Positions 11,032 through 24,669 of a stretch of DNA of 64,000 nucleotides are shown in pieces. A program made the translations under genes and the position numbers. The notes under the pieces were generated by a model. The model was not told the origin of the DNA. It worked only from the letters and a program-made list of their open reading frames with translations, and did no database searches. The DNA is from Roseomonas gilardii subsp. gilardii. GTDB lineage: Bacteria; Pseudomonadota; Alphaproteobacteria; Acetobacterales; Acetobacteraceae. Every line of letters starts with the position of its first letter. The stretch's first letter is position 1. The stretch lies in contig NZ_CP095554.1 in the NCBI RefSeq assembly GCF_023078375.1, forward strand, positions 3,000,001 through 3,064,000. Direction: 5' to 3'.

Positions 11032-11051
11032 AAATGGCGGAGGGGATGGGA
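11032..11051 (+). repeat. left attachment core (att)
   Basis: The sequence aaatggcggaggggatggga is identical to 24574-24593. It copies the last part of the tRNA-Ser gene (reverse orientation), the usual target of tyrosine recombinases. Confidence 0.85.
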
Positions 11052-11110
11052 CCCTCTTCTGGGCTTTTCCAAGCTCCTGAAAGCATTGCTCTTCAACCCC
11101 TTAGGACCTA

Positions 11111-11149
11111 CCGTAAGGGGGAGAATGTGAGGGGTGGCGTGAGGGGGAG
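11111..11149 (+). repeat. left iteron cluster, three GTRAGGGG boxes
   Basis: GTAAGGGG at 11113 and GTGAGGGG at 11127 and 11139 (spacings 14 and 12). The 39-bp block is 36/39 identical to 24475-24513, in the same orientation. It lies 59 bp inside the att core and just before the recombinase start, as expected of arm-type recombinase sites, possibly also controlling the gene. Confidence 0.65.
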
Positions 11150-11151
11150 GA

Positions 11152-11577
11152 ATGGCGAAAGTCCCTGGCTATCTGGAGCAACGGCGGCAGAGCTGGGAAG
11201 CCGTGGTGGACGTGCCCCCTGCCCTTCGTGAGGCAGTTGGACGCAAGCGGTTGCGGAAGGGTCTCGGCACCAGAGACAAGGCTGTGGCCAAGGCACGTCT
11301 CCCCAGGGCCCTCCTGGAACTCCACAGGACCATCGAAGAGGCCCGTAAAGCTCACCCGAAGACGGACCCTCTAACGGCCGAGGCGATGGCCCTGAGAGAG
11401 CAACGGGAGATGGTGAAGGCCGGTCGGTGGGCTGTCACCTCAACACACGAGGTATGGGACCCTGATGCCGGTGCGGTGGTGGAGGTGGAGGCCGATGATG
11501 CCGAACACCTCATCACGGACGCCATCCAGGCCCGTTCCGAGGAACTCCGGAAGCAGGAGGGGCCAGAGAGGGCAGCC
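11152..11577 (+). pseudogene. int: tyrosine recombinase (integrase), N-terminal fragment
   Basis: 142 codons of the N-terminal part of a phage-type integrase: an arm-binding/SAM-like region starting 'MAKVPGYLEQRRQSWEAVVDVP' with 'RLRKGLGTRDKAVAKARLPRALLELH'. The coding sequence runs straight into the inverted repeat of an IS element, whose first three bases (TGA) stop it. The catalytic domain is not here; its last part resumes at 12901. The first catalytic Arg region and about 150 or more residues are in neither fragment. The gene directly follows the left iteron block. It would have integrated and excised the element but is now inactive. Confidence 0.8.
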
Positions 11578-11616
11578 TGAACCGCCCCGGGATTGCCGGA
11601 GGCCATTGGGCTTAAA

Positions 11617-12522
11617 TTATGCGGCCATGGGAGTGCCGTCCAGCATGGCGTAGTAGCGTTCTTCGGCTTCGGCAGGTGGTATATTGCCGATGGGCGCGAG
11701 AAGCCGGCGGTTGTTGAACCAGTCCACCCATTCCAGCGTGGCGTATTCGACGGCCTCAAAGGATCGCCACGGACCACGCCGGTGGATCGCCTCGGCCTTG
11801 TAAAGGCCGTTGATCGTCTCTGCCAAAGCGTTGTCGTAGCTGTCGCCTACACTGCCCACCGATGGCTCGATCCCGGCTTCGGCAAGGCGCTCGGTATATT
11901 TGATCGAGACATACTGGCTGCCGCGGTCGCTGTGATGGATCAGGCCACCACGACGGACAGGACGCCGATCATGGATCGCCTGCTCCAGGGCATCCAGCAC
12001 GAAGCTGGCATGCGCCGTCCTGCTTACCCGCCAGCCCACGATATAGCGGGCGTAGACGTCGATCACGAAGGCCACGTAGACGAACCCTGACCAAGTCGCG
12101 ACATAGGTGAAGTCCGACACCCACAGCATGTTCGGCGCCGGGGCGTGGAACTGCCGGTTCACCTGGTCGAGCGGGCAAGGCGCGGCCTTGTCGCTCATCG
12201 TCGTGCGCACCGGCTTGCCGCGGATCACGCCCTGCAAGCCCAGCTCGCGCATCAGCCGCTCCACCGTACATCGGGCTATGTCGAAGCCTTCGCGCCGCAT
12301 CTGTCGCCAAACCTTGCGCACGCCGTAGACGCCGAAGTTCTCGGTAAAAACCCGCATCACCTCTGGCTTCAGGGCCCGATCACGCTGGGCACGCGACGAT
12401 AAGCGCGAGGGATCGCGCCGCTGCGCCAGGTGCTCATGGTAGGTGGATGGGGCGATCGGCAGAACCCGGCAGATCGGCTCGACCCCATAGTCACCGCGAT
12501 ACTCGTCGATGAACGCGATCAT
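11617..12522 (-). CDS. IS3-family transposase OrfB (DDE integrase core)
   Basis: A 301-residue transposase catalytic subunit. An HTH_21 region ('[18 protein letters not shown]') precedes an rve core with the D-D-35-E triad: Asp137 ('LWVSDFTYV'), Asp199 ('[10 protein letters not shown]') and Glu235 ('[13 protein letters not shown]'). Its ATG overlaps the orfA stop (ATGA). In IS3 elements the active enzyme is an OrfAB fusion made by ribosomal frameshifting; no clear slippery heptamer was seen at this overlap. All catalytic residues are present, so the IS may still be active. Confidence 0.92.
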
Positions 12523-12845
12523 CGCTTGAACGGGCGGTCGAGCTCCGCCTGGGCAAAATACGCAGATGCCTTGCGCAGGATCTCGTTGGCCTGGCGCAGC
12601 TCGCGGTTCTCGCGCTCCAGCGCCTTGAGCTTGTCAGCCACATCGGTGGGCACACCAGCTCGTTTGCCGCTGTTCACCTCGGCCTTCTTCACCCACTCCA
12701 GCAGCGTGTGCCCCGAACAGCCGAACTTCTCAGCAATGGATGTGATTGCGGCCCAGCGGGACGGATGGTCGCCTTCGTGATCCAGCACCATGCGGACCGC
12801 CCGTTCACGAACCTCCGGTGCAAACTTGTTCGTCGTCTTGCTCAT
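12519..12845 (-). CDS. IS3-family transposase OrfA (HTH)
   Basis: A 108-residue DNA-binding subunit. The helix-turn-helix is in '[22 protein letters not shown]' (residues about 31-52) and a leucine-zipper-like helix in '[19 protein letters not shown]' (about 72-90) for dimerisation and pairing with OrfB. The start '[20 protein letters not shown]' is the usual one for the IS51 group. It lies about 50 bases inside the right terminal repeat. Confidence 0.92.
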
Positions 12846-12898
12846 AGTAGACCCTTCCTCTCAGGAGTTGGGGCCTCCGACAATCCCGGGGCGGTTCA

Positions 12899-13146
12899 GC
12901 CGGTATCGCCAGGAGGTGGGAGTGCATGAGCGGGAGGAAGGAAGAAGGCGGAGCCGCGTCAACTTCCACTCCTTCCGCCGCTGGTTCATCACCAAGGCGC
13001 TCCAGGCGGGCCAGCCAGAGCGCGTTGTGAAGCAGGTGGTGGGTCACTCGTTGCAGGGGGACGTGACCCTCGGGGTGTACTTTGGGGGTGATTTGATGCC
13101 CGCGTTAAGGAAGTGCGTGGAGGCCGTGAGGCTGCCAGAATGTTAG
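12899..13146 (+). pseudogene. int: tyrosine recombinase (integrase), C-terminal fragment
   Basis: The last 82 or so codons of the disrupted integrase. Catalytic motifs of the C-terminal domain are intact: 'HSFRRWF' (box II Arg), 'VVGHSL' (His) and the nucleophile Tyr in 'GVYFGGDL'. The frame is read from 12901 (frame 1), one base off from what a simple 3-bp target duplication would need to join with the N-terminal part. No start codon with a ribosome-binding site precedes it, so it is unlikely to be made. Confidence 0.8.
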
Positions 13147-13273
13147 CCGCGCAGTTCCCAGACCTTCATAAGAACACAAATCGCAGACTACCGGATTTTT
13201 GAAAAATGCTGTAAATCAATACTCAGAAAATTAAATGCATTGGCAGAGAATTCATCGAACAGGAACGTTAACC

Positions 13274-14161
13274 ATGAGCACAATCGAACAAGCAACTCCT
13301 CTTTGCCCTTGCGTACAATGCAAAAGAAACACCAAGCACAAAGTCGTGCACGAAATCGAGGAGCAGTATCGGGACGAGTATCGTTGCGCCATCTCGCATT
13401 CAATTATCGAATGCCTCGGCTGCGGCGGAAGATCTTTCAGATATGTATTCAGTGATTTTGAGAACTCTTATCCGACTGACGAACATGATTGGGAAGTACC
13501 ACAAGATATAGAATATTATCCGAAGTATGACCCCCATTATATAAGCCTAGATAGCACCCATTCCGTTCCCGAATTGGTCAGTGAAATATACAAGGAGTCG
13601 ATCCACGCAGTACAGGCAGGAGCGCTCACATTGGCAAGCCTAGGTCTGCGTGCGACAATCGAAGCGATATGTAATGACAAGGCGATATCTGGACGTAACC
13701 TGGAAGTCCGCATTGCCAAACTTGCCACTCAGGGTCTCATCTCGAATAAAGATGCAGAGCGTCTACACGCAATTCGATTCCTGGGAAACGACGCAGCACA
13801 TGAAATTAAAAAACCGCGATCAAATCAGGTATCAGTTGCACTCAAAATAATTAATCATCTTATCCAAAGCGTCTATCTACTCGAAGACGAAATGTCTCGG
13901 AAATTAGACACAATCGTCACAGATTCGGATGAATTTAAGAGACTATTGAATAAGCATATTGCATCCCATCAAAAAGGCTCCGAATATCCACTTGCTGCAT
14001 ATCTAGGGAAAGATTTACGAAGGCTTGGTGCAGGCGCCGCACAACTTGAAACACAACTTCTGGCAGAAATTCATTCCGGTACTTATACAAAATTAGCTGT
14101 AGGAAAAGTGGCGCATTACCAGGGCTCCAAAAATCCAGTTCAGCATTTCATAATAAACTAG
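13274..14161 (+). CDS. DUF4145-domain protein with zinc-ribbon-like N terminus
   Basis: A 295-residue protein. Residues 11-16 and 47-50 form paired Cys motifs ('CPCVQC' and 'CLGC'), probably a zinc ribbon, followed by a helical DUF4145 domain ('ALTLASLGLRATIEAICND' to 'RFLGNDAAHEIKKP', about residues 110-190). DUF4145 is of unknown biochemical role; it occurs alone or beside restriction and other defence genes. GC and codon use are far lower than in neighbours, so it was acquired separately. ATG 13274 has AGGAA 9-13 bases upstream. It follows the broken integrase and ends exactly where a truncated phage gene begins, so it looks like cargo inserted in the element. Confidence 0.7.
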   Translation: MSTIEQATPLCPCVQCKRNTKHKVVHEIEEQYRDEYRCAISHSIIECLGCGGRSFRYVFSDFENSYPTDEHDWEVPQDIEYYPKYDPHYISLDSTHSVPELVSEIYKESIHAVQAGALTLASLGLRATIEAICNDKAISGRNLEVRIAKLATQGLISNKDAERLHAIRFLGNDAAHEIKKPRSNQVSVALKIINHLIQSVYLLEDEMSRKLDTIVTDSDEFKRLLNKHIASHQKGSEYPLAAYLGKDLRRLGAGAAQLETQLLAEIHSGTYTKLAVGKVAHYQGSKNPVQHFIIN

Positions 14162-14398
14162 GTCTCCTTCGTCCCCTCGGCGTACTTCATCCCAGGCACC
14201 GGAGCGGCGGGCCTCAAGCTGAACCTGGAGGCCGTCCAGGTTATCAAGCTCCAACAGGGCGGCGCCCGTGACGCCTCGGCCTACGGCTTCGGTGCCGAGG
14301 AGGACGGTTACTCCTACGAAGAGGAGCAGCAGGGCGGCTTCTCGGACGAGAGCGGGTCCGACGAGGGCGGCGACACCGAGGGCACTCCGGACTTCTGA
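14162..14398 (+). pseudogene. C-terminal remnant of a phage DUF2815-like protein
   Basis: An open frame with no start codon that encodes a typical phage protein tail: 'SAYFIPGTGAAGLKLNLEAV', 'QVIKLQQGG', 'YGFGAEEDG', then an acidic disordered end 'DEGGDTEGTPDF'. The acidic tail and beta-rich body resemble DUF2815/single-strand DNA-binding proteins of phages; the family call is tentative. The 5' portion is lost at the junction with the low-GC DUF4145 gene. High GC returns abruptly at 14162. Confidence 0.5.
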
Positions 14399-14480
14399 AT
14401 CCCCAAGCACATCAACATGAGAGGGCCGTGGGCGCCGCAGATGCGCCCGCTCGCCCCGACAGCATAGGACCAATCAACCC

Positions 14481-15074
14481 ATGAACACTTTCACCTTCCC
14501 GATCACCCAGCAGTCCATCCGCGTGGTGGAGATCGAGGGCCAGCCGTGGTTCGTCGCGGCGGATGTTTGCCGCATTCTTGACCTCAAGATGTCCGCCTCG
14601 GGAACCTTCGTGGTGCATCTCCGGCGATTGGATGTCTCAGAGATGCGCCGCGAGATGGTGCCTACCATCGTGAGTGGTAGGGAGCTGCGACGGCAAAACA
14701 TGCTCATCTCCGAGAGCGGCCTCTACAAGCTCATCATGCGCTCTGACAAACCCGAGGCCCGCCGGTTCCAGGATTGGGTGACGCGGGATGTCCTCCCCGC
14801 CATCCGCAAGGACGGCTCCTATGTGATGGGAGAGGAGAAGGTCCGCACCGGAGAGATGAGTGAGGACGAGCTGATCCTCCGGGCCGTCCAGGCCCTCCAG
14901 CGCAAGGTGGACCGCCTCACCGAGGAGAAGGCCGAGGTGGAGCGGGAGCGCGACGAGATGGCCCCGAAAGCGGCCTTCGTGGATGAGCATGTGGAGGACG
15001 TGAGGATGACCCTGGCGCGGTTCGGGAGGACCCTGACGGGGCTCCGGAGACTTGTAGCCCACACATGCCAATAG
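14481..15074 (+). CDS. Bro-N antirepressor, truncated KilAC domain
   Basis: A 197-residue phage-type regulator. A Bro-N DNA-binding domain covers residues about 10-110 ('EGQPWFVAADVCRILDL', 'ISESGLYKLIMRSDKPEARRF', 'WVTRDVLPAIRKDGSYVMG'), then a coiled coil (about 135-160) and the beginning of a KilAC domain ('VRMTLARFGRTLTGL'). The KilAC domain stops at that point, whereas the paralogue at 17004 continues for about 80 residues. Such antirepressors bind repressors or operators to control phage lysis-lysogeny. A palindrome copy lies just after the stop (15091-15108). Confidence 0.8.
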   Translation: MNTFTFPITQQSIRVVEIEGQPWFVAADVCRILDLKMSASGTFVVHLRRLDVSEMRREMVPTIVSGRELRRQNMLISESGLYKLIMRSDKPEARRFQDWVTRDVLPAIRKDGSYVMGEEKVRTGEMSEDELILRAVQALQRKVDRLTEEKAEVERERDEMAPKAAFVDEHVEDVRMTLARFGRTLTGLRRLVAHTCQ

Positions 15075-15090
15075 AAGTGTTACCTTCCCA

Positions 15091-15108
15091 GGTGCAGTTG
15101 ACTACACC
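15091..15108. repeat. island palindrome copy 1 (GGTGCAG-TTGA-CTACACC)
   Basis: First of six copies of the consensus GGTGCAG-N4-CTGCACC; one mismatch in the right arm. It lies 16 bases after the truncated antirepressor gene. Confidence 0.7.
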
Positions 15109-15124
15109 TGAACGGTTCTTCCCT

Positions 15125-15451
15125 TCACCGGCCCGCCACGGACCTCCAGCGGTTCACCATCTCGGGCCCGATATCCTGCCGGTAGCAGACCGGAGAGCGG
15201 CCTCCTGGGCGGCTGTAGGCACTGCGTCCACCGCAGGCCCGGCCGTTCCTCATGGTCGAGTAGGGACAGGCGCAGTTGCCGGGATAGCTCGCGATGCTCT
15301 CCGCGATGATGCGGTCCCGGATGGTGTCGTCCGAAGAGGACAGATCGCGGGCCGATAAGGGCCCCGCAAAGGCCACTCCTAGGACACCCAGGAGGAGCCC
15401 GGCGAAGGTTCCCCGTAGGGAGACCAGCGAAGCCACCGGCACGAGCGCCAC
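15125..15451 (-). CDS. small secreted Cys-rich protein
   Basis: A 108-residue protein with a signal peptide (residues about 1-35, hydrophobic 'TFAGLLLGVLGVAFAGPLSA') and a Cys-rich mature part: 'ASYPGNCACPYSTMRNGRACGGRSAYS' region and 'SPVCYRQDI', four cysteines likely forming two disulfides in the periplasm. Proteins with this SYPGxCACPY pattern recur on phages, plasmids and islands but have no known function. A GTG start at 15451 follows GGAAGGGGGG. It forms a two-gene unit with the upstream small gene at 15467-15637. Confidence 0.6.
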   Translation of the reverse strand: MALVPVASLVSLRGTFAGLLLGVLGVAFAGPLSARDLSSSDDTIRDRIIAESIASYPGNCACPYSTMRNGRACGGRSAYSRPGGRSPVCYRQDIGPEMVNRWRSVAGR

Positions 15452-15466
15452 GGCTGCCCCCCTTCC

Positions 15467-15637
15467 TCAGTAGCGCCGGTAGGAAGAGCCGTAGCCGGAG
15501 GAGCGTGAGGACTGCCCGTAGCTGCCGCCATAGGAAGGCGCGGGGTTCCGATAGCCCGGCTCACCCGTGAAGGGATTGGTGTTTCCGCGCGTGGTGTAGT
15601 TGTTCAGCGGCGTGCTGTCCGGGGCGAAGCGGAGCAT
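15467..15637 (-). CDS. small Gly/Ser/Tyr-rich conserved protein
   Basis: A 56-57 residue protein 'MLRFAPDSTPLNNYTTRGN' continuing 'TNPFTGEPGYRNP' and a low-complexity Ser/Gly/Tyr tail. The core NNYTTRGNTNPFTGEPG is a widespread short motif in hypothetical proteins of phages and proteobacteria, of unknown function. It precedes the secreted Cys-rich gene on the same strand with a 15-base gap, suggesting co-expression. An in-frame upstream ATG at 15658 adds 7 residues. Confidence 0.5.
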   Translation of the reverse strand: MLRFAPDSTPLNNYTTRGNTNPFTGEPGYRNPAPSYGGSYGQSSRSSGYGSSYRRY

Positions 15638-15658
15638 GGGCCTGTGTGTCCTTCCCAA

Positions 15659-16058
15659 GGGGTGTCCCGGCGCACCTCCGGGGACCCGTGGAGGGACCGA
15701 AGGGACGATCTATAAAGATACGATATGCAATAATTGAGACGTTCCACACAAGACTGATTCGCTCCTGAGACGATGGAGGCGAGGCTTGGCCGCCCGGCCA
15801 CGCGCCCGGAACCTCAGAGCCACCTCAGCGGCGGCCAGGACAGCCCCAGGAAGCCGCCACGCCTCTTTCCACATGTCCGGGAGGGGCACTGTCACAAGGG
15901 CATTCAGGGGCTTTTAAAAAGGCGATTAGGCATATTCGCGAAAGACTAAATATCCTTCGCATATGTCACACGAATAAATCCAAGGAAACCAAAAAACATC
16001 TTCCCGAAAACGCGAAGACCTATTATCCAAAATAAGAAATCAAGCTGTGGACGGATTG
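15659..16058. other. gene-free stretch, GC falling to the right
   Basis: No credible gene. The first half is GC-rich; after about 15,910 the sequence becomes AT-rich (for example around 15930-16040), like the DUF4145 region. It probably holds the promoters for the divergent small-protein pair and the 16059 gene. Confidence 0.45.
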
Positions 16059-16397
16059 ATGCCTCTGTCACCACGAACAAAAATCATCCTGGCGCTGCGA
16101 GAGTTGCGCCTGATGTTCCCAAATATCAAAGTGAGTGAGGCAGAAGTCCTTTTCCGGATCGCTGCAAATGAAGGGGTTTGCCAGCATGAGCTTATTGACG
16201 TGATGAAGCCTTCCTCAGTCGGCACACGCACGGTGATGAACCGAACGTTCTTGACTTTCGCGGCAGGCGGCCCCGATGGTCCGTTGATCCAGATGCACCA
16301 AAAGCGCGGAGAGCGTGGGTTTCCAGCGAAGGAAACGTTCCTTACGGCTGTGGGACAGAACTTCGTAAGCCGGATCGAAAGAATCCTAGAGAGATAA
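16059..16397 (+). CDS. possible MarR-like winged-helix regulator
   Basis: A 112-residue protein of lower GC than its neighbours. 'KVSEAEVLFRIAANEGVCQHELIDVM' followed by 'GTRTVMNRTFLTF' and a wing-like 'LIQMHQKRGERGFPAKETFLTAVGQNFVSRI' fits the MarR winged-helix fold, but it lacks the family's flanking dimer helices. ATG 16059 is used; a GTG at 16047 would add four residues, and neither has a clear ribosome-binding site. Three palindrome copies lie within 560 bases downstream, so it is a candidate to bind them. Confidence 0.45.
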   Translation: MPLSPRTKIILALRELRLMFPNIKVSEAEVLFRIAANEGVCQHELIDVMKPSSVGTRTVMNRTFLTFAAGGPDGPLIQMHQKRGERGFPAKETFLTAVGQNFVSRIERILER

Positions 16398-16491
16398 TAG
16401 CCAACCGAAGAGGGTGCCGGGAAGAAGCTCCATCGTACTTCCGGCCCACATGTGATAACCCAAGCATTGCGCTTCAAAGGTGATTTGTCCG

Positions 16492-16509
16492 GGTGCAGTG
16501 GACTGCACC
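16492..16509. repeat. island palindrome copy 2 (GGTGCAG-TGGA-CTGCACC)
   Basis: Perfect copy; arms extend to GGTGCAGT/ACTGCACC. Followed by TGAGA, as in copy 3. Confidence 0.75.
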
Positions 16510-16734
16510 TGAGACCCAAACCCACAGACCGCCCGATGGTGGTCACATGACGACAGCCGGGGGACTGTCCGAATGGGGGTAAGAGGGAAACTGAAAGTGT
16601 TCTTAAAGAGAACCTGATGGTTCCCGAGACAGATCACCTCAGAGTTTCACTTCCTCTCACTACCTCCAGGAAAGAACCTCACTGAGAAAACCTCTGAGGT
16701 TCACCTTAAAGGGAAACTTCCTGTATCCCTTCAA

Positions 16735-16752
16735 AGTGCAGTGGACTGCACC
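16735..16752. repeat. island palindrome copy 3 (AGTGCAG-TGGA-CTGCACC)
   Basis: The arms match over GTGCAGT/ACTGCAC; only the first G of the consensus is changed. It lies 243 bp after copy 2 and shares its centre and the trailing CTGAGA. Confidence 0.7.
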
Positions 16753-16892
16753 TGAGAGCCCTTCGGGCGGAAGACACCCCGCAGGCCGCCTCACTTTCTG
16801 TCTTCCCCTCAGGGAGTTTCCCTGGAGGTGGGTCTTCGAAGGAAAGGCGCAGGAGGGTGAACACCCTCAGTCCCCTTCCATGGGTGTCTTCC

Positions 16893-16911
16893 GGCACCGC
16901 CTTCCGGTGCC
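16893..16911. terminator. GGCACCG hairpin upstream of antirepressor
   Basis: GGCACCG and CGGTGCC with a CCTTC loop, followed by CCTTTAGG. It is a possible weak terminator or attenuator 90 bases before the Bro-N gene. Confidence 0.35.
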
Positions 16912-16942
16912 CCTTTAGGTCCCCGTCAAATCCCCGCTCACA

Positions 16943-16960
16943 GGTGCAGCCGACTGCACC
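16943..16960. repeat. island palindrome copy 4 (GGTGCAG-CCGA-CTGCACC)
   Basis: Perfect arms, 44 bases before the ATG of the full-length antirepressor gene. The surrounding 38 bases differ at one position from those around copy 5. Confidence 0.75.
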
Positions 16961-17003
16961 GACAGCGCCCCTTCGCCATTTCCTGAACAGCACAAGGAAC
17001 CCA

Positions 17004-17906
17004 ATGCCTCACGATGCTCTTTCCACGTCCCGCTTAACCCCTGGGCAGGACACCGAAGCCTTATTACCCGCCTCCGCGACCCCGCGTGTCTTCACCTTCC
17101 CCGACACCCGCCAGCCGGTCCGCACGGTGACCCGCGAGGGTGAACCCTGGTTTGTCCTGGCAGACGTCTGCCTTGTCCTGGCGCACAGCAATCCGTCCGT
17201 TGCTGCGGGCCGCCTGGATGACGAGGAGAAGGGGGTAAGCAGTGTTTATACCCCCGGCGGTCTCCAGGCCATGACGGTCATCAGCGAGAGCGGCCTCTAT
17301 TCCCTGATCCTGACGAGCCGCAAGCCGGAGGCCCGTGCCTTCAAGCGGTGGGTGACCGGAACCGTCCTTCCCACCCTGCGCAGGGACGGCGCCTATGTCA
17401 TGGGCGAGGAGAGGCTCTCCGACCTGGCCGCGTCGGTGGACGACCTGGAGGCCCTCAACGACCGCATCGTCTCCCTCCTGCGCCACAAGGCGGAGCTTCT
17501 GGAGGCCCGCGTGGAGCGCGAGAAAGCCGCCCGTCTGGCTGCCGAGGCCACGGTGCAGGTGATGGCGCCCAAGGCCGCGCTGGCGGACGAACACTTCGCC
17601 CAGGCCGGAACCATGACGCTGGCCCGCTTCGCCCGCACGCTGGGGGGCCTGAACGCGCACCGGATCAAGGCCGACCTGGAGCGCCACGGCTTCCTCTACC
17701 GCACCGGCCGGAAGGGCTCCTACCGGGTCCGCACGCCGTTCCGCGACACGCTCTTCGTGGAGAAGGCCCATCCCGCCCATCCCGGCACCATCGAAATCCA
17801 CCCGACCCCGAAGGGCTGCCAGCGCATCGTGGCCCTGTATCAGTCGGGCCAGCTCACGATGAAGCTCGGGCACGGGCCGAAGGCCCCCACCAGGGTCGCG
17901 GCTTAG
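17004..17906 (+). CDS. Bro-N/KilAC phage antirepressor
   Basis: A 300-residue phage antirepressor. The Bro-N domain (residues about 27-135) shows 'EGEPWFVLADVCLVL', 'ISESGLYSLILTSRKPEARAFKRWV' and 'TLRRDGAYVMGEER'; a coiled coil follows (about 145-190); the C-terminal KilAC domain (about 195-285) has 'APKAALADEHF', 'MTLARFARTLGGLNAHRIKADL' and 'RHGFLYRTGRKGSYRV'. Likely DNA- or repressor-binding, switching phage or element genes on. ATG 17004 follows AAGGAA. It is a paralogue of the truncated gene at 14481, with palindrome copies immediately before and after it. Confidence 0.88.
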   Translation: MPHDALSTSRLTPGQDTEALLPASATPRVFTFPDTRQPVRTVTREGEPWFVLADVCLVLAHSNPSVAAGRLDDEEKGVSSVYTPGGLQAMTVISESGLYSLILTSRKPEARAFKRWVTGTVLPTLRRDGAYVMGEERLSDLAASVDDLEALNDRIVSLLRHKAELLEARVEREKAARLAAEATVQVMAPKAALADEHFAQAGTMTLARFARTLGGLNAHRIKADLERHGFLYRTGRKGSYRVRTPFRDTLFVEKAHPAHPGTIEIHPTPKGCQRIVALYQSGQLTMKLGHGPKAPTRVAA

Positions 17907-17927
17907 CCCCCGGCGCAGACTTCCCCA

Positions 17928-17945
17928 GGTGCAGCCGACTGCACC
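17928..17945. repeat. island palindrome copy 5 (GGTGCAG-CCGA-CTGCACC)
   Basis: Perfect arms, 22 bases after the antirepressor stop and about 110 before RNase HI. Shares a 38-bp context with copy 4. Confidence 0.75.
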
Positions 17946-17965
17946 GACAGCGCCCCTTCACCACA

Positions 17966-18030
17966 CCCCCTTCCCGCGCCCTTCACGCCCCGCCCGGTTT
18001 CCCGGTGACGGGCCCCCGGCGCCTGTCCCC
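17966..18030 (+). repeat. shared leader block, copy A (before RNase HI)
   Basis: About 60 bases including CCCTTCCCGCGCCCTT and CCCGGTGACGGGCC. It closely resembles 18615-18679 upstream of the transglycosylase gene. Both lie in 5' leaders and may be a common regulatory element. Confidence 0.5.
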
Positions 18031-18058
18031 ACAGCCATCACGAAAGAACCGAACCCCG

Positions 18059-18535
18059 ATGAACGACACCGAGTTACAAACCCCCGACACCCCCGCCCCT
18101 CGCCCTGCCGTCGAAATCTGGACAGACGGCGCCTGCGCGGGAAATCCCGGCCCCGGCGGCTGGGCCGCGATCCTGTGCCAGGACAGCGAGGAGCGCATGC
18201 TCACCGGCTCCGCCCCCTGGACCACCAACAGCCGCATGGAACTGACCGCCGCCCTGGAGGCCCTCAAGGCCCTCCCCCACCCCTCGCGGGTGACGGTGCG
18301 GAGTGACAGCCAATACCTCGTGCGCGGCATGAACGAATGGATGGGCAACTGGCTCCTGCGGGGCTGGCGCACCGCTGGCGGCAAGCCGGTGGAGAACCGC
18401 GACCTCTGGGAGGCGCTGATGCGGGCTTCGGCCCATCAGCTCGTCACCTGGGTCTGGGTGAAGGGCCATGCCGCCGATCCGATGAACCGGCGGGTGGACC
18501 GCATGGCCGTGGCCGCCTGCAACCGGCAGGCATGA
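18059..18535 (+). CDS. rnhA: ribonuclease HI
   Basis: A 158-residue RNase H1, which cuts RNA in RNA-DNA hybrids. Complete active site: Asp23 in 'WTDGACAGNPGPGG', Glu61 in 'NSRMELTAAL', Asp83 in 'RSDSQYLV', plus His137 and Asp147 in 'WVKGHAADPMNRRVD'. Length matches bacterial RNase HI. It is inside the phage-like element and follows the antirepressor in the same direction. It would be a second, element-borne copy that could remove primers during phage replication. The start is ATG 18059 with AAAGAA upstream. Confidence 0.92.
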   Translation: MNDTELQTPDTPAPRPAVEIWTDGACAGNPGPGGWAAILCQDSEERMLTGSAPWTTNSRMELTAALEALKALPHPSRVTVRSDSQYLVRGMNEWMGNWLLRGWRTAGGKPVENRDLWEALMRASAHQLVTWVWVKGHAADPMNRRVDRMAVAACNRQA

Positions 18536-18614
18536 GCCATCCGGCGGCGGCTCGATAACGGCCCCGCCTCCCTTCGTGTCTTCCCCGGCGTCCCCGCGAC
18601 GCCACCCCACCGAT

Positions 18615-18679
18615 CCCCTTCCCGCGCCCTTTCCGTGCCCGCTCCGGTTCCCCGGTGACGGGCCTTCGGCGCTGGCCCC
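18615..18679 (+). repeat. shared leader block, copy B (before transglycosylase gene)
   Basis: Counterpart of 17966-18030: CCCTTCCCGCGCCCTTT then CCCCGGTGACGGGCC and GGCGCTGGCCCC. It starts about 100 bases before the ATG at 18715. Confidence 0.5.
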
Positions 18680-18714
18680 TTCCCGGCTCTCACTTCCCCA
18701 AGGATGCAACGCCC

Positions 18715-21102
18715 ATGAGCGGCTCCCAACAGAACACCTTCCGCCCGGCTGCCTCCCCGACCCGTCAGGCGGCCCTTCCCGGACGCCCCACGCCCAACCC
18801 CGCGCCGCTGCGTCCCTACGACCGCATCGCGCCCCAGCAGAACACCGCCCCCACGCCACCGCCACGGGGCGACAGCGGGGCGATGCAGGTGGCCCGTGCG
18901 CTGTCCGACATGAACCCCCGTCTCGGGGCCCTGATGGACACCTACATGGCCCAGCAGCGGGTGGAGGAGGCGGGCGAGGCCGACAGCGCCGCGACCATGG
19001 CGGCCCTCCAGTCCAACATCTCCTCCTGGGCCGATGCGGTGAAGGCCACCCCCGACCTTGCCGACCGCTCGCCCTACTTCCGGCGCATCTACGAGGACCG
19101 TCTCGCCCGCATGGCGGTGCAGCGCCGGGGCAACGAGCTGACGGCCGAGTACTGGAACAGCCCACTCGCCGGATCGGAGGACCCTGCGGCCATCAACGGC
19201 TGGCTCAATGAGCGCATGGTGGAGACCCTCAAGGGCTTCTCGGAGAACCCCAACCAGCGGGCCGCTGCGGCCGAGGAAATCCGCACCCAGGCCCAGCAGC
19301 TCATCCGGGGCCATCAGGCCAACGCCGTGCGCAACCTCGTCTCCCGCAACGAGGACAGCTTCTCGTCCGCCGTGGGTGCCGTCTTCGACACGGCGGGCCA
19401 GCGGTCCATCCCCGCCACGCCCGGCATCGGGGCCCTCGCACCGACCGAGCTGCGTTCCCATTACGAGGCGGCATCGGCCGAGACCGGCATCCCCGTGAAC
19501 GTCCTCATGGCGCAGGGCCACCACGAAAGTGGAGGGTTCGCGGCGGATGTTCTCAACGGCACCCGCAGGGGCACCCGAGGGGAGATCGGCTTGGCCCAGG
19601 TGCTGCCCTCCACGGCGGCCGATCCGGGCTACGGGCTGGCCCCCATCTCCGAGGCCGACCTCCTGGACCCCGGCAAGGCCATCCTGTTCCAGGCCCGCTA
19701 CCTCAAGGCCCGTGCCGAGGCCGCCGGGGTGAAGGACTGGAGCAACCCGAACGAGGCCGTGCGGGGGCTGGCCAGCTACAACGGGCAGGGTCCCGCCTCC
19801 CTCGGCTACGGCCGCGAGGTTCTGGGTAAGGCCGGGGGCGTGGGCGGTGTCGCGGGCAGCAACCTGGACCTTGCCTCCTCCCTGGAACGGCTGGAGGCCG
19901 AGGCCCGTGCCCAGGGCGTGGACGGGCGCAGGATCAACTCCATCCTGGCCCACGCCACGGCCGAGGCGATGGTGCGGCAGGGCCGTGAGGACTTTGCCGA
20001 GCTGGGCTTCCGCAAGCGCCCGGACGGCACCCCCGGCTTCGCCACCACGGCCGAGGGGCGGCAGATCATCGACCGCGCCCGCGAGCGCATCCTCTCCCGC
20101 CGGGTCCAGGAGGAGAACCGCCAGTGGACCCAGGAGCAACGCGCCAAGGCCACCCGCACGGAGGACGTGTCGAAGCTCGTAGGGGATGCCCTGATCGGCC
20201 AGCTCGCCCAGGGACAGGCCCCGATGCTGACCCCGGAGGTTCTCTCGAAGGTCAACGAGGTGGGCGGGGCGGATGCCGTGAAGGCCGTGATGACCCTCAA
20301 CGAGGCCCTCCAGAAGCCCGCCGAGCAGTCCCGCGCGGGGGTCCTGGCGCAGCTTGAGCTACAGGCCACGCAAGGGAAGCTGGATGAGCAGGACTTGCTG
20401 CCCCTCCTCGGCAACCGGATGGTCTCCCTCGGGGACTTCCAGCGGGTGGCCACGATGGTCCGTGACGTGCGGGCCGATCCGATGCTCTCCGATGGCACGG
20501 TGCAGACCGCCATTGCCCAGGCCCAGGATATCGTGGGCGACCCGGACAAGATGGCAAGCAGGACACCCTTCTTCCGCCAACCGGAGGCCGCCAACGCGAT
20601 CCGTTCCGCCCTCATGGAAAGCCTGATCGCCTTCCGCAAGGAGAAGCCCACCTCCTCGCGGGGCGAGGTGATCGAGCATATCCATCGGGAGGTGGAGCGC
20701 CTCGTGCCGGTCTATGCGCCGGGCAAAGACCTCGCGAGCTGGCGGCTGGCGCAGGTGCAGGCGAAGGGCGTGCTGCCCGATGGCCGTCGCATCGCCCAGC
20801 CGGGAGACGGCAGCAGTAATCCGCCACCGTCCTCACCGCCGCCCGCCACGGAGACCCCGAAGGGCCCCGCAGAGGGCAGCTCCGGGAAGCCCGGAACGGT
20901 CACGACCGGGGACGTGATGCCTGCCCCTGGGGTGGACTGGAGGACCACGCCGGTCTTTGCCTCCAGGGCACGGCTGGCCGAGGCATTCCGGGAGTGGCGG
21001 GAGAACCCCACGGGCACCGGCCCCTATGCCCGCTGGCTCCTGGAGGCAAAGGGGAGCGACGCCCTGACCTTCTACCGGGCCCAGCAACGGCTCTTGCGGT
21101 AA
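18715..21102 (+). CDS. large phage protein with lytic transglycosylase (SLT) domain
   Basis: A 795-residue protein. A Pro-rich, disordered N terminus (about 1-55) and helical region precede an SLT domain (about 245-360): catalytic Glu271 in 'GHHESGGF', then 'GEIGLAQVLPSTAADPG' and 'GLASYNGQGPASLGYG'. A long Ala/Gln-rich helical part follows (about 380-680), then a Pro/Ser linker and C-terminal 'GTGPYARWLLEAKGSDAL'. SLT inside a long helical protein is typical of podovirus internal virion/ejection proteins that open the cell wall during DNA entry. No neighbouring structural genes remain. ATG 18715 has AAGG 11 bases upstream; an upstream ATG at 18655 lies in the repeated leader. Confidence 0.8.
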   Translation: MSGSQQNTFRPAASPTRQAALPGRPTPNPAPLRPYDRIAPQQNTAPTPPPRGDSGAMQVARALSDMNPRLGALMDTYMAQQRVEEAGEADSAATMAALQSNISSWADAVKATPDLADRSPYFRRIYEDRLARMAVQRRGNELTAEYWNSPLAGSEDPAAINGWLNERMVETLKGFSENPNQRAAAAEEIRTQAQQLIRGHQANAVRNLVSRNEDSFSSAVGAVFDTAGQRSIPATPGIGALAPTELRSHYEAASAETGIPVNVLMAQGHHESGGFAADVLNGTRRGTRGEIGLAQVLPSTAADPGYGLAPISEADLLDPGKAILFQARYLKARAEAAGVKDWSNPNEAVRGLASYNGQGPASLGYGREVLGKAGGVGGVAGSNLDLASSLERLEAEARAQGVDGRRINSILAHATAEAMVRQGREDFAELGFRKRPDGTPGFATTAEGRQIIDRARERILSRRVQEENRQWTQEQRAKATRTEDVSKLVGDALIGQLAQGQAPMLTPEVLSKVNEVGGADAVKAVMTLNEALQKPAEQSRAGVLAQLELQATQGKLDEQDLLPLLGNRMVSLGDFQRVATMVRDVRADPMLSDGTVQTAIAQAQDIVGDPDKMASRTPFFRQPEAANAIRSALMESLIAFRKEKPTSSRGEVIEHIHREVERLVPVYAPGKDLASWRLAQVQAKGVLPDGRRIAQPGDGSSNPPPSSPPPATETPKGPAEGSSGKPGTVTTGDVMPAPGVDWRTTPVFASRARLAEAFREWRENPTGTGPYARWLLEAKGSDALTFYRAQQRLLR

Positions 21103-21182
21103 GCGGCCCGGATATTTGGGCCCCGTACCTGAGAGCCCATCCTCCCGTGCCCGCGTTGCGGTTCCCCCCGGTGGGGGTGGGC

Positions 21183-21222
21183 GGGCCCGGCAGGGTGGTC
21201 TTCGCGGGACCCTGGCGGGCCC
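21183..21222 (+). terminator. long imperfect hairpin after transglycosylase gene
   Basis: GGGCCCG-G-CAGGGT pairs with ACCCTG-G-CGGGCCC (one G/G mismatch), with a 12-base loop. No T run. It stands directly before palindrome copy 6 and may end the transglycosylase transcript. Confidence 0.5.
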
Positions 21223-21227
21223 CTTCG

Positions 21228-21245
21228 GGTGCAGTCCGCTGCACC
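21228..21245. repeat. island palindrome copy 6 (GGTGCAG-TCCG-CTGCACC)
   Basis: Perfect 7-bp arms; 71 bases before the ATG of the VOC-family gene. Confidence 0.75.
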
Positions 21246-21315
21246 TGGGGGCCACCCCCTCCCTCCCGGAGGGGCCAATGGACAGCCCACCGCCGGGGCC
21301 CTTAGCGTGCCCACC

Positions 21316-21726
21316 ATGGACACTCCGGCCTCGCCTCCTGTCCCGAAGCTCCGCGTCGCCCGTCCCACGGATCACCTGGAGGCGGTGGTGCGGTTCTACC
21401 GGGACGGGCTAGGACTGGAGGAGCTGACGCGCTTCCAGGACCATGAGGGCTTCGACGGGGTGATGCTGGGGCAGCCGGGCGGCCCCTACCATTTCGAGTT
21501 CACCCATGCCCAAGGCCACAGCGCGGGACGGGCCCCGACCCGGGACAACCTTCTGGTCTTCTACCTGCCCGACCCGGCGGCGTGGGAAGCGGCGGTGGCC
21601 CGGATGAGGAGCCACGGGCACGAGCCGGTACCCTCCTTCAATCCCTATTGGGACCGCGCCGGGGTCACGTTCGAGGACCCGGACGGGTATCGGGTGGTCC
21701 TGCAACGGGCCGCCTGGGGGCGGTGA
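21316..21726 (+). CDS. VOC-family (glyoxalase/bleomycin-resistance fold) protein
   Basis: A 136-residue single VOC module. Two beta-alpha-beta-beta-beta units are visible: 'PTDHLEAVVRFYRDGLGLEEL' to 'YHFEFTHAQG', and 'NLLVFYLPDP' to 'VTFEDPDGYRVVLQ'. The last motif carries the usual metal-binding Glu region. The family includes dioxygenases, glyoxalases and drug-binding proteins; function here is not predictable. It is an odd gene for a prophage and is probably cargo expressed in the integrated state. ATG 21316 is used; a GTG two codons upstream is possible. Confidence 0.75.
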   Translation: MDTPASPPVPKLRVARPTDHLEAVVRFYRDGLGLEELTRFQDHEGFDGVMLGQPGGPYHFEFTHAQGHSAGRAPTRDNLLVFYLPDPAAWEAAVARMRSHGHEPVPSFNPYWDRAGVTFEDPDGYRVVLQRAAWGR

Positions 21727-21918
21727 ACGTGGCCGGAGAGCGTCTCAGGAAAAAGATTAGTCCCGGATGCGGGAAGGCTATTGCGAGTCCGATCCGAGGG
21801 TTAGCCAAAGTTGCCCACACGATCCCGGATACGGTATTAAAATCAATGCTTTACGTCGAATTTCGGAAGATTCATAGCTTCGGCACCGGGGCACCAAACC
21901 TTTCCCGGAGGAGCCAAA

Positions 21919-22284
21919 ATGAACATCAGCCCGTTCTCTGATACCACTCCCGGCGGCTTCGGCGGGGAACATGAAGGAGGGCTTTACGTGGATAGCCCGA
22001 TGCGCGGCTGTGTCTGCTTTCGCGTGGGCCGGAAAATGGAAATAGAGCTGTATGCCTGGGGCGGCCGGGATATCAGGAGCGGCTTTGCCGGGTTCCGCCG
22101 AGGCTACAGCGCCTTCGCGCGGTGGCGCTTCTTCTCATGCTGGCTCGGGCAATCAGCCATCGTGGTCCATCGGAAGATCGCTCGCCCTGATCCCGTGCTC
22201 GTTGAAGAGCTGGAAACAGCCGTAGCCGACAGGCTTTTCGGCGCTCACACGAAGTGGGGCAGTCGCATAAGCGAAGGCGCCTAA
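21919..22284 (+). CDS. hypothetical protein of the element
   Basis: A 121-residue soluble protein with no family recognised. Features are a Gly-rich start ('TTPGGFGGEHEGG'), an Arg/Phe/Trp-rich centre ('GFRRGYSAFARWRFFSCWLG') and a helical C terminus ('DPVLVEELETAVADRLF'). GGAGGAG lies 6 bases before the ATG, a strong ribosome-binding site supporting that it is a real gene. A terminator follows. Note the lower GC of the leader (21780-21900). Confidence 0.55.
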   Translation: MNISPFSDTTPGGFGGEHEGGLYVDSPMRGCVCFRVGRKMEIELYAWGGRDIRSGFAGFRRGYSAFARWRFFSCWLGQSAIVVHRKIARPDPVLVEELETAVADRLFGAHTKWGSRISEGA

Positions 22285-22316
22285 CGCTCCCTCCCTCCCC
22301 AACCCGCCCTCAAGGG

Positions 22317-22346
22317 CCCCTTCCGGTCACTCCGGAGGGGGTCTTT
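22317..22346 (+). terminator. intrinsic terminator
   Basis: CCCCTTCCGG pairs with CCGGAGGGGG (one G-U) around a TCACT loop, followed by TCTTTGTCGTTT. It closes the 121-residue hypothetical gene. Confidence 0.65.
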
Positions 22347-22629
22347 GTCGTTTCCGGGGAAGGCTGTGCCCGCAACGGGCCGTGCCATAGAGCCGCCTAG
22401 CGGCGACCGGGGCGCCTCTGGTGGCGGCGAGAACCCTTCCCGCATCCTCCGGAGGGGTCACTGTCACAAGCTCTTCCACGGGCCCTTGGAGCGGCCCTGT
22501 GAGGGTGTGCGGAAGATCGTATCCGTTGCGGTGTCACATGAGGGTGGCGGGGCGTGAGCTGTCGCAGGACATGGAGGCCGCCCCTCCTTCCGCGCCATGC
22601 TCCTCACGGTCACGACACAGCGCTGCTCA

Positions 22630-22745
22630 GTCCATTTAGAGCCTGCTCATACTGGACTTTTCCGCACCCCTCCCAGACCGTCCATTTGAAATGGGTCTTG
22701 CATTCCTGGACGGATAGTCCATCAATGTCTTTGACCATTCTGGAC
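22630..22745 (+). other. putative res site, three resolvase subsites
   Basis: Three successive GTCCA...TGGAC inverted pairs, spanning 22630-22657 (28 bp), 22680-22711 (32 bp) and 22717-22745 (29 bp), 116 bp in all, end 12 bases before the resolvase ATG. Number, order, subsite lengths and overall size match Tn3/gamma-delta res sites (subsites 28, 34 and 25 bp, total about 114 bp), with subsite III next to the resolvase gene. Half-sites such as AGTCCATTTA resemble the Tn3-type consensus TGTCYRTTA. The array may also autoregulate the gene. Confidence 0.65.
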
Positions 22746-22757
22746 GGAGACACCCCC

Positions 22758-23339
22758 ATGTTCGTCGGCTACGCCCGCACCTCCACCGTGGACCAGGAAG
22801 CCGGGCTGGAGGCCCAGCAACGCGACCTCCGGGCCGCCGGGTGCGAACGACTCTTCTCGGAGCGGGTCTCCTCGGTGGCCAAGCGGGCCGCCCTGGAGGA
22901 GGCTCTCCGCTTCGTCCGGGAAGGTGACGTGCTGGTGGTGACGAAGCCCGACCGCCTCGCCCGCTCCACCGCCGACCTCCTGGCCCTCGTGGGGCGACTG
23001 GAGGCCCGCAAGGTGGCCCTGAGGGTCCTCTCCATGGGTGGCCAGGAGATCGACACCCGCAGCCCCACGGGGCGCCTGATGCTGACCATGCTGGGGGCCG
23101 TGGCGGAGTTTGAGCGGGCCCTGATGCTGGAGCGCCAGCGGGAGGGCATCGCCAAGGCCAGGGCGGATGGGAAGTACCGGGGGAGGACCCCCACGGCTCA
23201 GCGCAAGGCTGCCGAGGTGGTGTCCCTGCGGGCCGAGGGCCTCACCGCTCCCGCCATCGCCGCCAAGCTCGGGATCGGCCGGGCGAGTGTCTTTGCGATC
23301 CTCAAGGCGCACCGGGAAGGGAGCGTGGAGGTGGTTTGA
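22758..23339 (+). CDS. serine recombinase (resolvase/invertase family)
   Basis: A 193-residue small serine recombinase. The catalytic domain starts 'MFVGYARTSTVDQ' with nucleophile Ser9; further active-site motifs are 'VVTKPDRLARS' and 'SPTGRLMLTMLGAVAEFERALMLERQREG' (dimer helix). A C-terminal helix-turn-helix follows ('LTAPAIAAKLGIGRASVFAIL'). Length and layout are those of Tn3-type resolvases and DNA invertases. The res-like array directly upstream favours resolution of multimers or cointegrates. No Tn3 transposase is present. GGAGA precedes the ATG. Confidence 0.9.
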   Translation: MFVGYARTSTVDQEAGLEAQQRDLRAAGCERLFSERVSSVAKRAALEEALRFVREGDVLVVTKPDRLARSTADLLALVGRLEARKVALRVLSMGGQEIDTRSPTGRLMLTMLGAVAEFERALMLERQREGIAKARADGKYRGRTPTAQRKAAEVVSLRAEGLTAPAIAAKLGIGRASVFAILKAHREGSVEVV

Positions 23340-23392
23340 AGGGGCCGGTGGAGGCCAGTGAGGGGCAGCCTAGGGGCACAGGATGGGGCCAT

Positions 23393-23472
23393 GATAGGAC
23401 CGATCCGGACCTTATGGCTTGCCTGTCTTATCGCATGTTGTTTTCGGGTTGATAGGTCCGATACGGACTTAT
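23393..23472. repeat. pair of 22-bp imperfect direct repeats
   Basis: GATAGGACCGATCCGGACC-TTAT at 23393 and GATAGGTCCGATACGGAC-TTAT at 23451, 58 bp apart, in the gap after the resolvase. The second contains the perfect palindrome GTCCG-ATA-CGGAC. Likely protein-binding sites of unknown purpose. Confidence 0.5.
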
Positions 23473-23514
23473 CGGGGTGGTAAGGGGCACCGCTTATTGT
23501 TTTTCGGGGGACCC

Positions 23515-24402
23515 TCAGGAACCCCCAGACAAACCAACATAGGCGAGCGCCTTGCGGACGGCTTCCACCACATCAGGCGCCGCAGTGACAATCTGCACAG
23601 TCTGCCAGATGGCCTGGAGGTTGCTGGTCAGCTTTGTCTTATTAGGCTTTTCCTGCTTGATGAGCGTGCTGCATTCCTCGGCTAGTTCCTTGATATCGGT
23701 GGCCTTGTCGGAAGGAAGGCCAAGGCTATCAAGCTTCTCAAGCAGCACGCTCATGGCTGCCTCAACGGCATCTTTAGACTGACCGTCTAAGCGAATTGAA
23801 ACCGTGGAGCTGGTTAAACCCACCAAGACAATATTGTTGCTGCCATGCACATTGGCAGAGGTCGCCATTGGGGAAGTTCCTTGATTAGCAATCTGGATGG
23901 ACGCCGCCTCTATAGCCTCCAAATCAAGCTGTAACGTCTCTTCGGCTTCGGCCACCATCTTATTGAATATCTGCTCTTCCAGGATGGCAGCAGCGCGGGC
24001 ACATGTAGGGGTGCGGAACGAGGCGTGGCTCCGCATCTCGCCTCTTAGAATCTCGATTTGCTCATGGATGAGCGGCCTTAGAACTAAATATGCCCGCTCC
24101 GCAAATCCTGTGCCCTGCCGACCACCGAAAGCGGCCATCGCCTGTTGAAGGACAAGAAGCGCCTGTCTGTATCTGTAGGTGACCTCACTGCCATAGGCAT
24201 CGATCACAGCCCCTACCGTTACACCGGAATGTTGGCGGCCTGCCGCAATCATTGGCGATATGGTCTTGTTTAGCTCGCGGTGAAAGTTTCGCCCCCGCTG
24301 GTCGGCTTCGATAGCAAGCCGTCGCTTGACCTGCTCCAGGACCCAATCGGGAAGCGTCTCGGGCAAATCTACGTCCCCATCTATGCCGCCAAGGTAACAC
24401 AA
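23515..24402 (-). CDS. unrecognised cargo protein at right end of the element
   Basis: A 295-residue, mostly helical protein with no family recognised. Visible parts are an N-terminal helical region (about 15-165) with 'LPDWVLEQVKRRLAIEADQ' and 'AERAYLVLRPLIHEQIEIL', a short hinge 'NVHGSNNIVLVG' (about 185-197), and a C-terminal domain with 'AVEAAMSVLLEKLDSLG' and 'VVEAVRKALAYVGLSGG'. The plan (helical body, NVxGxNN hinge, C-terminal domain) is reminiscent of some abortive-infection proteins, but this is a guess. GC is lower than in the chromosome. The frame opens with a TTG at 24402 and no ribosome-binding site; the true start is uncertain. Confidence 0.5.
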   Translation of the reverse strand: MCYLGGIDGDVDLPETLPDWVLEQVKRRLAIEADQRGRNFHRELNKTISPMIAAGRQHSGVTVGAVIDAYGSEVTYRYRQALLVLQQAMAAFGGRQGTGFAERAYLVLRPLIHEQIEILRGEMRSHASFRTPTCARAAAILEEQIFNKMVAEAEETLQLDLEAIEAASIQIANQGTSPMATSANVHGSNNIVLVGLTSSTVSIRLDGQSKDAVEAAMSVLLEKLDSLGLPSDKATDIKELAEECSTLIKQEKPNKTKLTSNLQAIWQTVQIVTAAPDVVEAVRKALAYVGLSGGS

Positions 24403-24474
24403 AACTTCGTGGTTACGCAGAACTTACGGCACTGCGCCAACAAGGTGTCTGCGAATCGCCTACGCCCTCCCAAA

Positions 24475-24513
24475 CCGTGAGGGGGAAAACGTGAGGGGTG
24501 GCGTGAGGGGGAG
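24475..24513 (+). repeat. right iteron cluster, three GTGAGGGG boxes
   Basis: GTGAGGGG at 24477, 24491 and 24503, with the same 14- and 12-base spacing and orientation as at 11113-11146, ending 60 bp before the right att core. It is not upstream of any gene, which favours a recombination rather than a promoter role. Confidence 0.65.
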
Positions 24514-24573
24514 AGCCTGCGGGCAACTACCTCTAACACGCTGATTTATATGGATTATTCGGCAGATAAGGGG

Positions 24574-24593
24574 AAATGGCGGAGGGGATGGGA
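24574..24593 (+). repeat. right attachment core (att), within tRNA-Ser 3' end
   Basis: Perfect copy of 11032-11051. It overlaps the acceptor stem and CCA end of tRNA-Ser, so integration restores a full tRNA gene. Confidence 0.85.
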
Positions 24594-24669
24594 TTCGAAC
24601 CCACGATAGGACTTGACATCCTATAACGGTTTAGCAAACCGCCGCCTTCGGCCACTCGGCCACCCCTCC
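24577..24669 (-). tRNA. tRNA-Ser (anticodon GCU)
   Basis: A class II tRNA of 93 bases including an encoded CCA. The acceptor stem GGAGGGG pairs with CCCCTCC, discriminator G. The anticodon loop reads TTT-GCT-AAA closed by GGCGG/CCG-type pairing, decoding AGC/AGU serine codons. A long variable arm (TATAGGATGTCAAGTCCTAT) and the TΨC sequence GGTTCGAATCC are present. The 3' end is the integration target of the element to its left. Confidence 0.95.

Follow-up and report, generated by a model that had tools for sequence, protein, structure and literature searches.

The question raised by a 64,000-nucleotide stretch of the Roseomonas gilardii subsp. gilardii genome (contig NZ_CP095554.1, positions 3,000,001 to 3,064,000; "the window" denotes this whole stretch, and its numbering is used for all features within it) is what purpose is served by a family of six palindromes, GGTGCAG-N4-CTGCACC, found in a single integrated element (11032-24593). 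The evidence supports the view that this six-copy set is what is left of an operator array that spanned the genome of a temperate T7-like phage. It is also reasonably probable that the palindromes are operators of a MarR-like lysogeny repressor, an arrangement resembling the stoperators of mycobacteriophages but palindromic.

The copies occupy 15091..15108, 16492..16509, 16735..16752, 16943..16960, 17928..17945 and 21228..21245, where a first-pass annotation made from the DNA letters had placed them. Being palindromic they have no strand; copies 2, 4, 5 and 6 have perfect arms, and copies 1 and 3 have one changed base each. The 38 bp context said to be common to copies 4 and 5 is indeed present, with one difference. 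That the motif is confined to the element also held in a whole-genome search, in which the exact form was found four times in 4.62 Mb, always within the element (control 0). Of the eight places in the genome with ≤1 mismatch, six are the element's copies; at ≤2 mismatches the genome has 42 matches versus 40 in the control, and the loose matches outside the element are therefore noise. Within the window, seven matches were obtained at ≤2 mismatches (100 shuffles: mean 0.78, maximum 3), the seventh of which (3700, two mismatches) is at chance level, and other centre lengths (0-9) gave scattered weak matches only. The six palindromes are thus real and restricted to the element, a chance origin or a chromosome-wide motif being excluded by the window shuffles, the exact-match count and the loose-match genome count.

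Related arrays were found in viral contigs. A scan of IMG/VR with a stricter form of the palindrome yielded 17 stretches. Two contigs, G307 (42.5 kb) and G309 (37.6 kb), both of which encode a T7-type RNA polymerase and an integrase, contain 13 and 15 matches, respectively, to GGTGNAG-N{3,6}-CTNCACC, spread along each contig (control 0 in both) and with a four-base centre in all of the matches listed. Allowing ≤1 mismatch, 21 copies are present in the approximately 39 kb of G307 examined (19 in three pieces and two in other stretches), compared with 0-0.03 copies per piece in shuffles of these pieces. The first-pass annotation had described the copies as lying only in gaps between genes. This stands for the recognised genes of the present remnant, where some copies are overlapped by longer unsupported open reading frames (ORFs), but not for the family as a whole, since some copies in G307 and G309 lie within genes and are read in different frames. 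Three such in-gene pairs are at matching places in the two contigs, and at the pair in the integrase gene the peptide encoded by the site is not kept in the T7-like phages LUZ100 or RHEph21.

The spread of copies along G307 and G309 counts against their being replication iterons, or sites for the integrase or the serine recombinase. In five further viral contigs the motif lies within a single open frame, several of these contigs having similar GGTGCA words in tandem that resemble origin iterons, and a recombinase is common to the window element and to related elements in two other Acetobacteraceae genomes, G166 and G225, but no copy adjoins the recombinase gene of the window; we regard this explanation as quite improbable. 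The motif in those five contigs (L038 7183, L039 10301, L040 3020, L042 6541 and L052 3011) is probably another kind of site.

The form of the G309 copies bears on whether the palindromes act in DNA or in RNA. One arm base is changed in 13 of the 15, in both orientations, and the site of a dimeric protein therefore fits better than an RNA stem. Hairpins serving as terminators or processing sites could be formed in RNA by the 7-8 bp arms, and many copies are closely 3' of a stop codon; however, no T run follows them, the stem is broken at one pair in those same 13 G309 copies, and copies also occur within genes. Furthermore, none of seven terminator-like matches in the window falls on a palindrome copy, and none of the seven sites of LUZ100 (below) is in any of its 22 mapped terminators. 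RNA hairpins are accordingly a decidedly unlikely explanation, and operator-like sites for a dimer, as the first reading of the sequence had proposed, are favoured over terminators.

Palindromes with three different words were found in six named T7-like phages: LUZ100, TRX32-1, RHEph21, RHEph01, Pasto and CRP-227. The word TATCCAC-N2-GTGGATA was first noticed in TRX32-1, recorded as having been induced from a lysogen, and in RHEph21, so that LUZ100 and RHEph01 provide an independent test; at ≤2 mismatches it is present in seven copies in LUZ100, eight in TRX32-1, five in RHEph21 and six in RHEph01 (shuffle averages ≤0.1). Pasto has nine copies of TAGTCAC-N6-GTGACTA, compared with 4-6 for the top-scoring palindrome, whatever its word, in shuffled sequence, and CRP-227 has five copies of TTAGGT-N3-ACCTAA at ≤1 mismatch, three of which closely flank the polymerase gene; both of these words were discovered in the same genomes in which they were counted. 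The sites are mostly outside annotated genes (32 of 40 in the six phages against an expectation of 3.2, a count that none of 20,000 simulations reached), although the Rhizobium phages are related and their sites are not independent within the 40. Many of the Rhizobium-phage palindromes (L059, L061 and L085) start 2-8 bp past a stop codon, and their places correspond across the three phages, examples being L061 8381, 13866 and 24420. In a blind palindrome search YIMV22061 gave an ambiguous, GC-rich result (15 versus 6-8 in shuffles) and HTVC200P no clear family; HTVC200P has recognition-helix residues in common with LUZ100 and three similar sites at ≤2 mismatches (shuffle mean 0.33, maximum 2), a likeness that is suggestive only.

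The LUZ100 record carries three host promoters, eight phage promoters and 22 terminators, all mapped, against which its seven sites could be placed. Two of the seven are in mapped host promoters, P1 and P2 (chance 0.0007), where they fall between the two promoter boxes as read here. There are none in the phage promoters, which have another common motif, and none in the terminators. In G307, a separate 24-bp motif, GATTAGGTCGCCCTACCGCATCCC, occurs four times, always in one direction and with 0-2 mismatches, at the polymerase gene and beyond it (L079 360, 3066, 3942 and 5779; contig IMGVR_UViG_3300017655_000010) and is a candidate promoter for the phage RNA polymerase; the palindrome is therefore not needed as a phage promoter. 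Promoters of the phage's own T7-type polymerase might have been expected from the finding of arrays in contigs that encode this enzyme and from several copies lying shortly upstream of genes. The palindromes are nevertheless symmetric, are found in both orientations in G309, do not overlap the LUZ100 phage promoters and have a co-directional rival in G307, all of which makes this reading very improbable indeed. Together, the LUZ100 positions and the G307 motif make a role of the palindromes as phage promoters or terminators unlikely. Given sites in host promoters and further sites elsewhere in LUZ100, a stoperator arrangement, in which the roadblock is a presumed part, therefore fits best.

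The likely reader of the palindromes in the window is the protein encoded at 16059..16397 (plus strand), a putative MarR-like repressor. We built a MarR profile from the MarR-like proteins of T7-like phages; one BB8 protein, not MarR-like by alignment, was also included. The whole of the 16059 protein matched this profile (E 7.4e-5 among 8,319 frames, 22 bits), and a single further window frame was listed, with an E value of 0.29. It is 28% identical to the MarR-like protein of G307. The proposal that it is a candidate binder, already made by the first-pass annotation, is thus strengthened by profile similarity. LUZ100, RHEph01, RHEph21, TRX32-1 and CRP-227 each have an annotated or matched MarR-like gene, and Pasto has a helix-turn-helix protein before its integrase that aligns with the phage MarR-like proteins. 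The G307 gene adjoins the integrase (MarR_2, E 5.4e-7), with a palindrome copy with a five-base centre 62 bp upstream. The MarR-like gene next to the integrase of G309 looks broken, only a C-terminal part being in a recognisable frame (L050 6314-6607, minus strand). Phages with different palindromes differ in the MarR recognition helix, which is an observed pattern and not a test.

The same annotation had also named the Bro-N proteins as binders, in which case Bro-N/KilA antirepressors would bind the palindromes as operators marking a small regulon of the element. In its favour, the element has two Bro-N genes in the midst of the copies, a Bro gene is present in RHEph01 and a KilA-N gene is present in LUZ100. 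Against this, palindrome families are present in Pasto, CRP-227, RHEph21 and TRX32-1 with no annotated Bro or KilA gene; a MarR-like gene is found in all six palindrome phages, while Bro or KilA is annotated only in RHEph01 and LUZ100 (many genes being unannotated). We therefore consider Bro-N binding unlikely. Nor is the suggested regulon of RNase HI, transglycosylase and VOC genes supported, since the relatives have sites throughout their genomes and nearness to a site therefore marks no regulon.

Several observations weigh against a MarR-like repressor acting through the palindromes. The 16059 protein has no Pfam match and only a weak match in PHROG (phrog_9665, E 0.03), its structure model is poor (pLDDT 55.6), and its gene has no palindrome copy immediately 5' of it. 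The G225 stretch (L026) holds three palindrome copies but yielded no MarR-like protein, and the G166 match is only weak (E 1.3e-4). In LUZ100, five of the seven sites do not coincide with any mapped start or end. HTVC019P and Lo5R7ANS have MarR-like genes and no clear palindrome family; in the blind best-palindrome search RHEph21 scored no higher than its shuffles, and BB8, for which the protein tested gave no MarR-like alignment, scored 7 versus 4 in shuffles. Lastly, another of the in-gene pairs in G307 and G309 encodes an identical peptide, which could reflect protein constraint.

Taking these points together, we infer the following mechanism. Each 18-bp palindrome, with its two-fold symmetry, would accommodate a protein dimer; such sites recur along the whole genome in relatives, mostly at gene junctions. 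In a lysogen, a small MarR-like repressor (the 16059 protein in the present element) would bind these sites, closing host-type early promoters where a site overlaps them; elsewhere the bound repressor may form a roadblock to transcription, as stoperators do.

The survey of Acetobacteraceae genomes provided further remnants. The exact motif is present in 27 of 299 genomes (our own included), 21 of which have a single copy; stretches were examined for part of these 27 genomes, and among them clustered copies at ≤1 mismatch were found in G166 and G225. The G166 remnant encodes an integrase, a recombinase and a protein 65% identical to that of the G307 gene next to the transglycosylase, and the G225 remnant combines the palindrome with RNase HI and a recombinase. 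Prophages bearing the RNA polymerase were found in seven of 397 family genomes. No GGTGCAG or TATCCAC word was present at ≤1 mismatch in the stretches of six of these and a 3.3 kb contig of the seventh, and no MarR homologue was detected by tblastn at E 1e-4 in the six stretches, which are possibly incomplete. A blind palindrome search of the six returned families that were GC-rich or made up of tandem repeats, most of them close to shuffle level. This suggests that the polymerase-bearing prophages of the family that lack a MarR-like gene also lack an array, with the proviso that the stretches may be incomplete. Searches for related loci with the 16059 protein in viral contigs and with the transglycosylase in genome contigs gave no match, and an orphan MarR-like gene in G078 had none of the searched T7-like genes nearby. 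A T7-like prophage remnant with terminase, integrase and polymerase fragments close together was noted in another genome of the window's genus (G102, L114 14932-19851).

Judged from its gene content, the window element is a degraded temperate T7-like (Autographiviridae-like) prophage. A 20-bp direct repeat, with its left copy at 11032..11051 and an identical right copy at 24574..24593 (neither stranded) at the 3' end of a tRNA-Ser gene (24577-24669, minus strand), marks the attachment sites and indicates integration at this tRNA gene. The integrase parts, the DNA-binding protein fragment, both Bro-N genes and the RNase HI, transglycosylase and recombinase genes listed below are on the plus strand. 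The N-terminal part of a tyrosine integrase (11152..11580) is 52% identical to part of a 484-aa frame of a relative, L023, and by itself has no PHROG match; the C-terminal part lies in a frame at 12790..13146 (PHROG integrase E 1.7e-7, 70% identity to L023). The gene, which is one open frame in L023, is split by an IS3-like insertion (11580-12850) with an Rfam ALIL pseudoknot at 12448-12564 and two minus-strand ORFs. A low-GC DUF4145 gene (13235-14161), unlike its neighbours in composition, is possible cargo. The T7-like homologues in the element are a single-stranded DNA-binding protein fragment, a transglycosylase, Bro-N and the MarR-like protein. The first of these comprises the C-terminal 78 residues (14162..14397; 67.5% identity to G307 and 63% to the annotated protein of Rhizobium phage TRX32-1). 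Next are Bro-N protein 1 (14481..15074; PF02498 E 8.1e-22, 36% to the RHEph01 gp011 region), Bro-N/KilAC protein 2 (17004..17906; PF02498 E 1.8e-21, PF03374 E 4.9e-7), RNase HI (18059..18535; PF00075 E 1.4e-38, 42% to L026) and a virion-type transglycosylase (18715..21102; SLT domain E 3.5e-5, 48.7% over 579 residues to G307), whose G307 homologue adjoins a T7-type tail tubular protein gene. A resolvase-type serine recombinase follows at 22758..23339 (PF00239 E 7e-41; 76% to L023, 68% to L026). No PF00940 match, and hence no T7-type RNA polymerase, was found in the whole genome; the element is therefore a remnant only, in which the palindromes are probably relics, while its relatives G307 and G309 do have the polymerase.

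More tentatively, it is possible that temperate T7-like phages as a group silence the lysogen by lineage-specific palindromic arrays read by a very small MarR-like repressor. If so, this would be a stoperator-like system separate from that of the mycobacteriophages, perhaps required because the lysogen would not survive a single leaky round of the phages' own fast polymerase, and site sequence together with the repressor recognition helix would define immunity groups. Predicted sites are now concrete in LUZ100, TRX32-1, RHEph01, RHEph21, Pasto and CRP-227; if confirmed, they would bring T7-like phages under the stoperator principle, and immunity groups may become readable from sequence. Boeckman et al. 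2022, which we know via the LUZ100 paper, reportedly set out a MarR-based lysogeny model of temperate T7-like phages. As far as our literature searches show, the new part is the genome-wide palindrome arrays, MarR repression in these phages having already been proposed; no such arrays are described in the titles and abstracts found, and Boeckman et al. 2022 may report part of this.

Three known systems may be compared. In Helicobacter pylori prophages, the relevant part of the report hypothesises that palindromes in the vicinity of prophage promoters are targets of MarR-like proteins (PMC11321410); in contrast to the present arrays, these motifs are AT-rich and belong to another phage group, and that part describes no genome-wide array (PMC11321410). 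The LUZ100 study, in the sections bearing on lysogeny, proposes that a MarR-like regulator by the integrase represses the phage through specific sites, states that no stable lysogens were obtained and gives the repressor's place of action as a proposal only (PMC10134795). Its model, as given in those sections, places sites only around the promoter before the RNA polymerase gene, whereas the arrays described here run along the genome (PMC10134795). Cluster A mycobacteriophage stoperators, as the pertinent sections of the source describe them, are many repressor sites genome-wide, in promoters and short intergenic spaces; they are 13-bp asymmetric sites, oriented with transcription and bound by a monomer with two DNA-binding domains (PMC9283540). 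The present sites differ in being 15-20 bp palindromes of T7-like phages with a MarR-like candidate repressor, and show no transcription-oriented asymmetry, the G309 copies facing both ways. The likeness to the Cluster A system as so described lies in the T7-like relatives rather than in the six-copy remnant alone: many sites genome-wide, mostly between genes.

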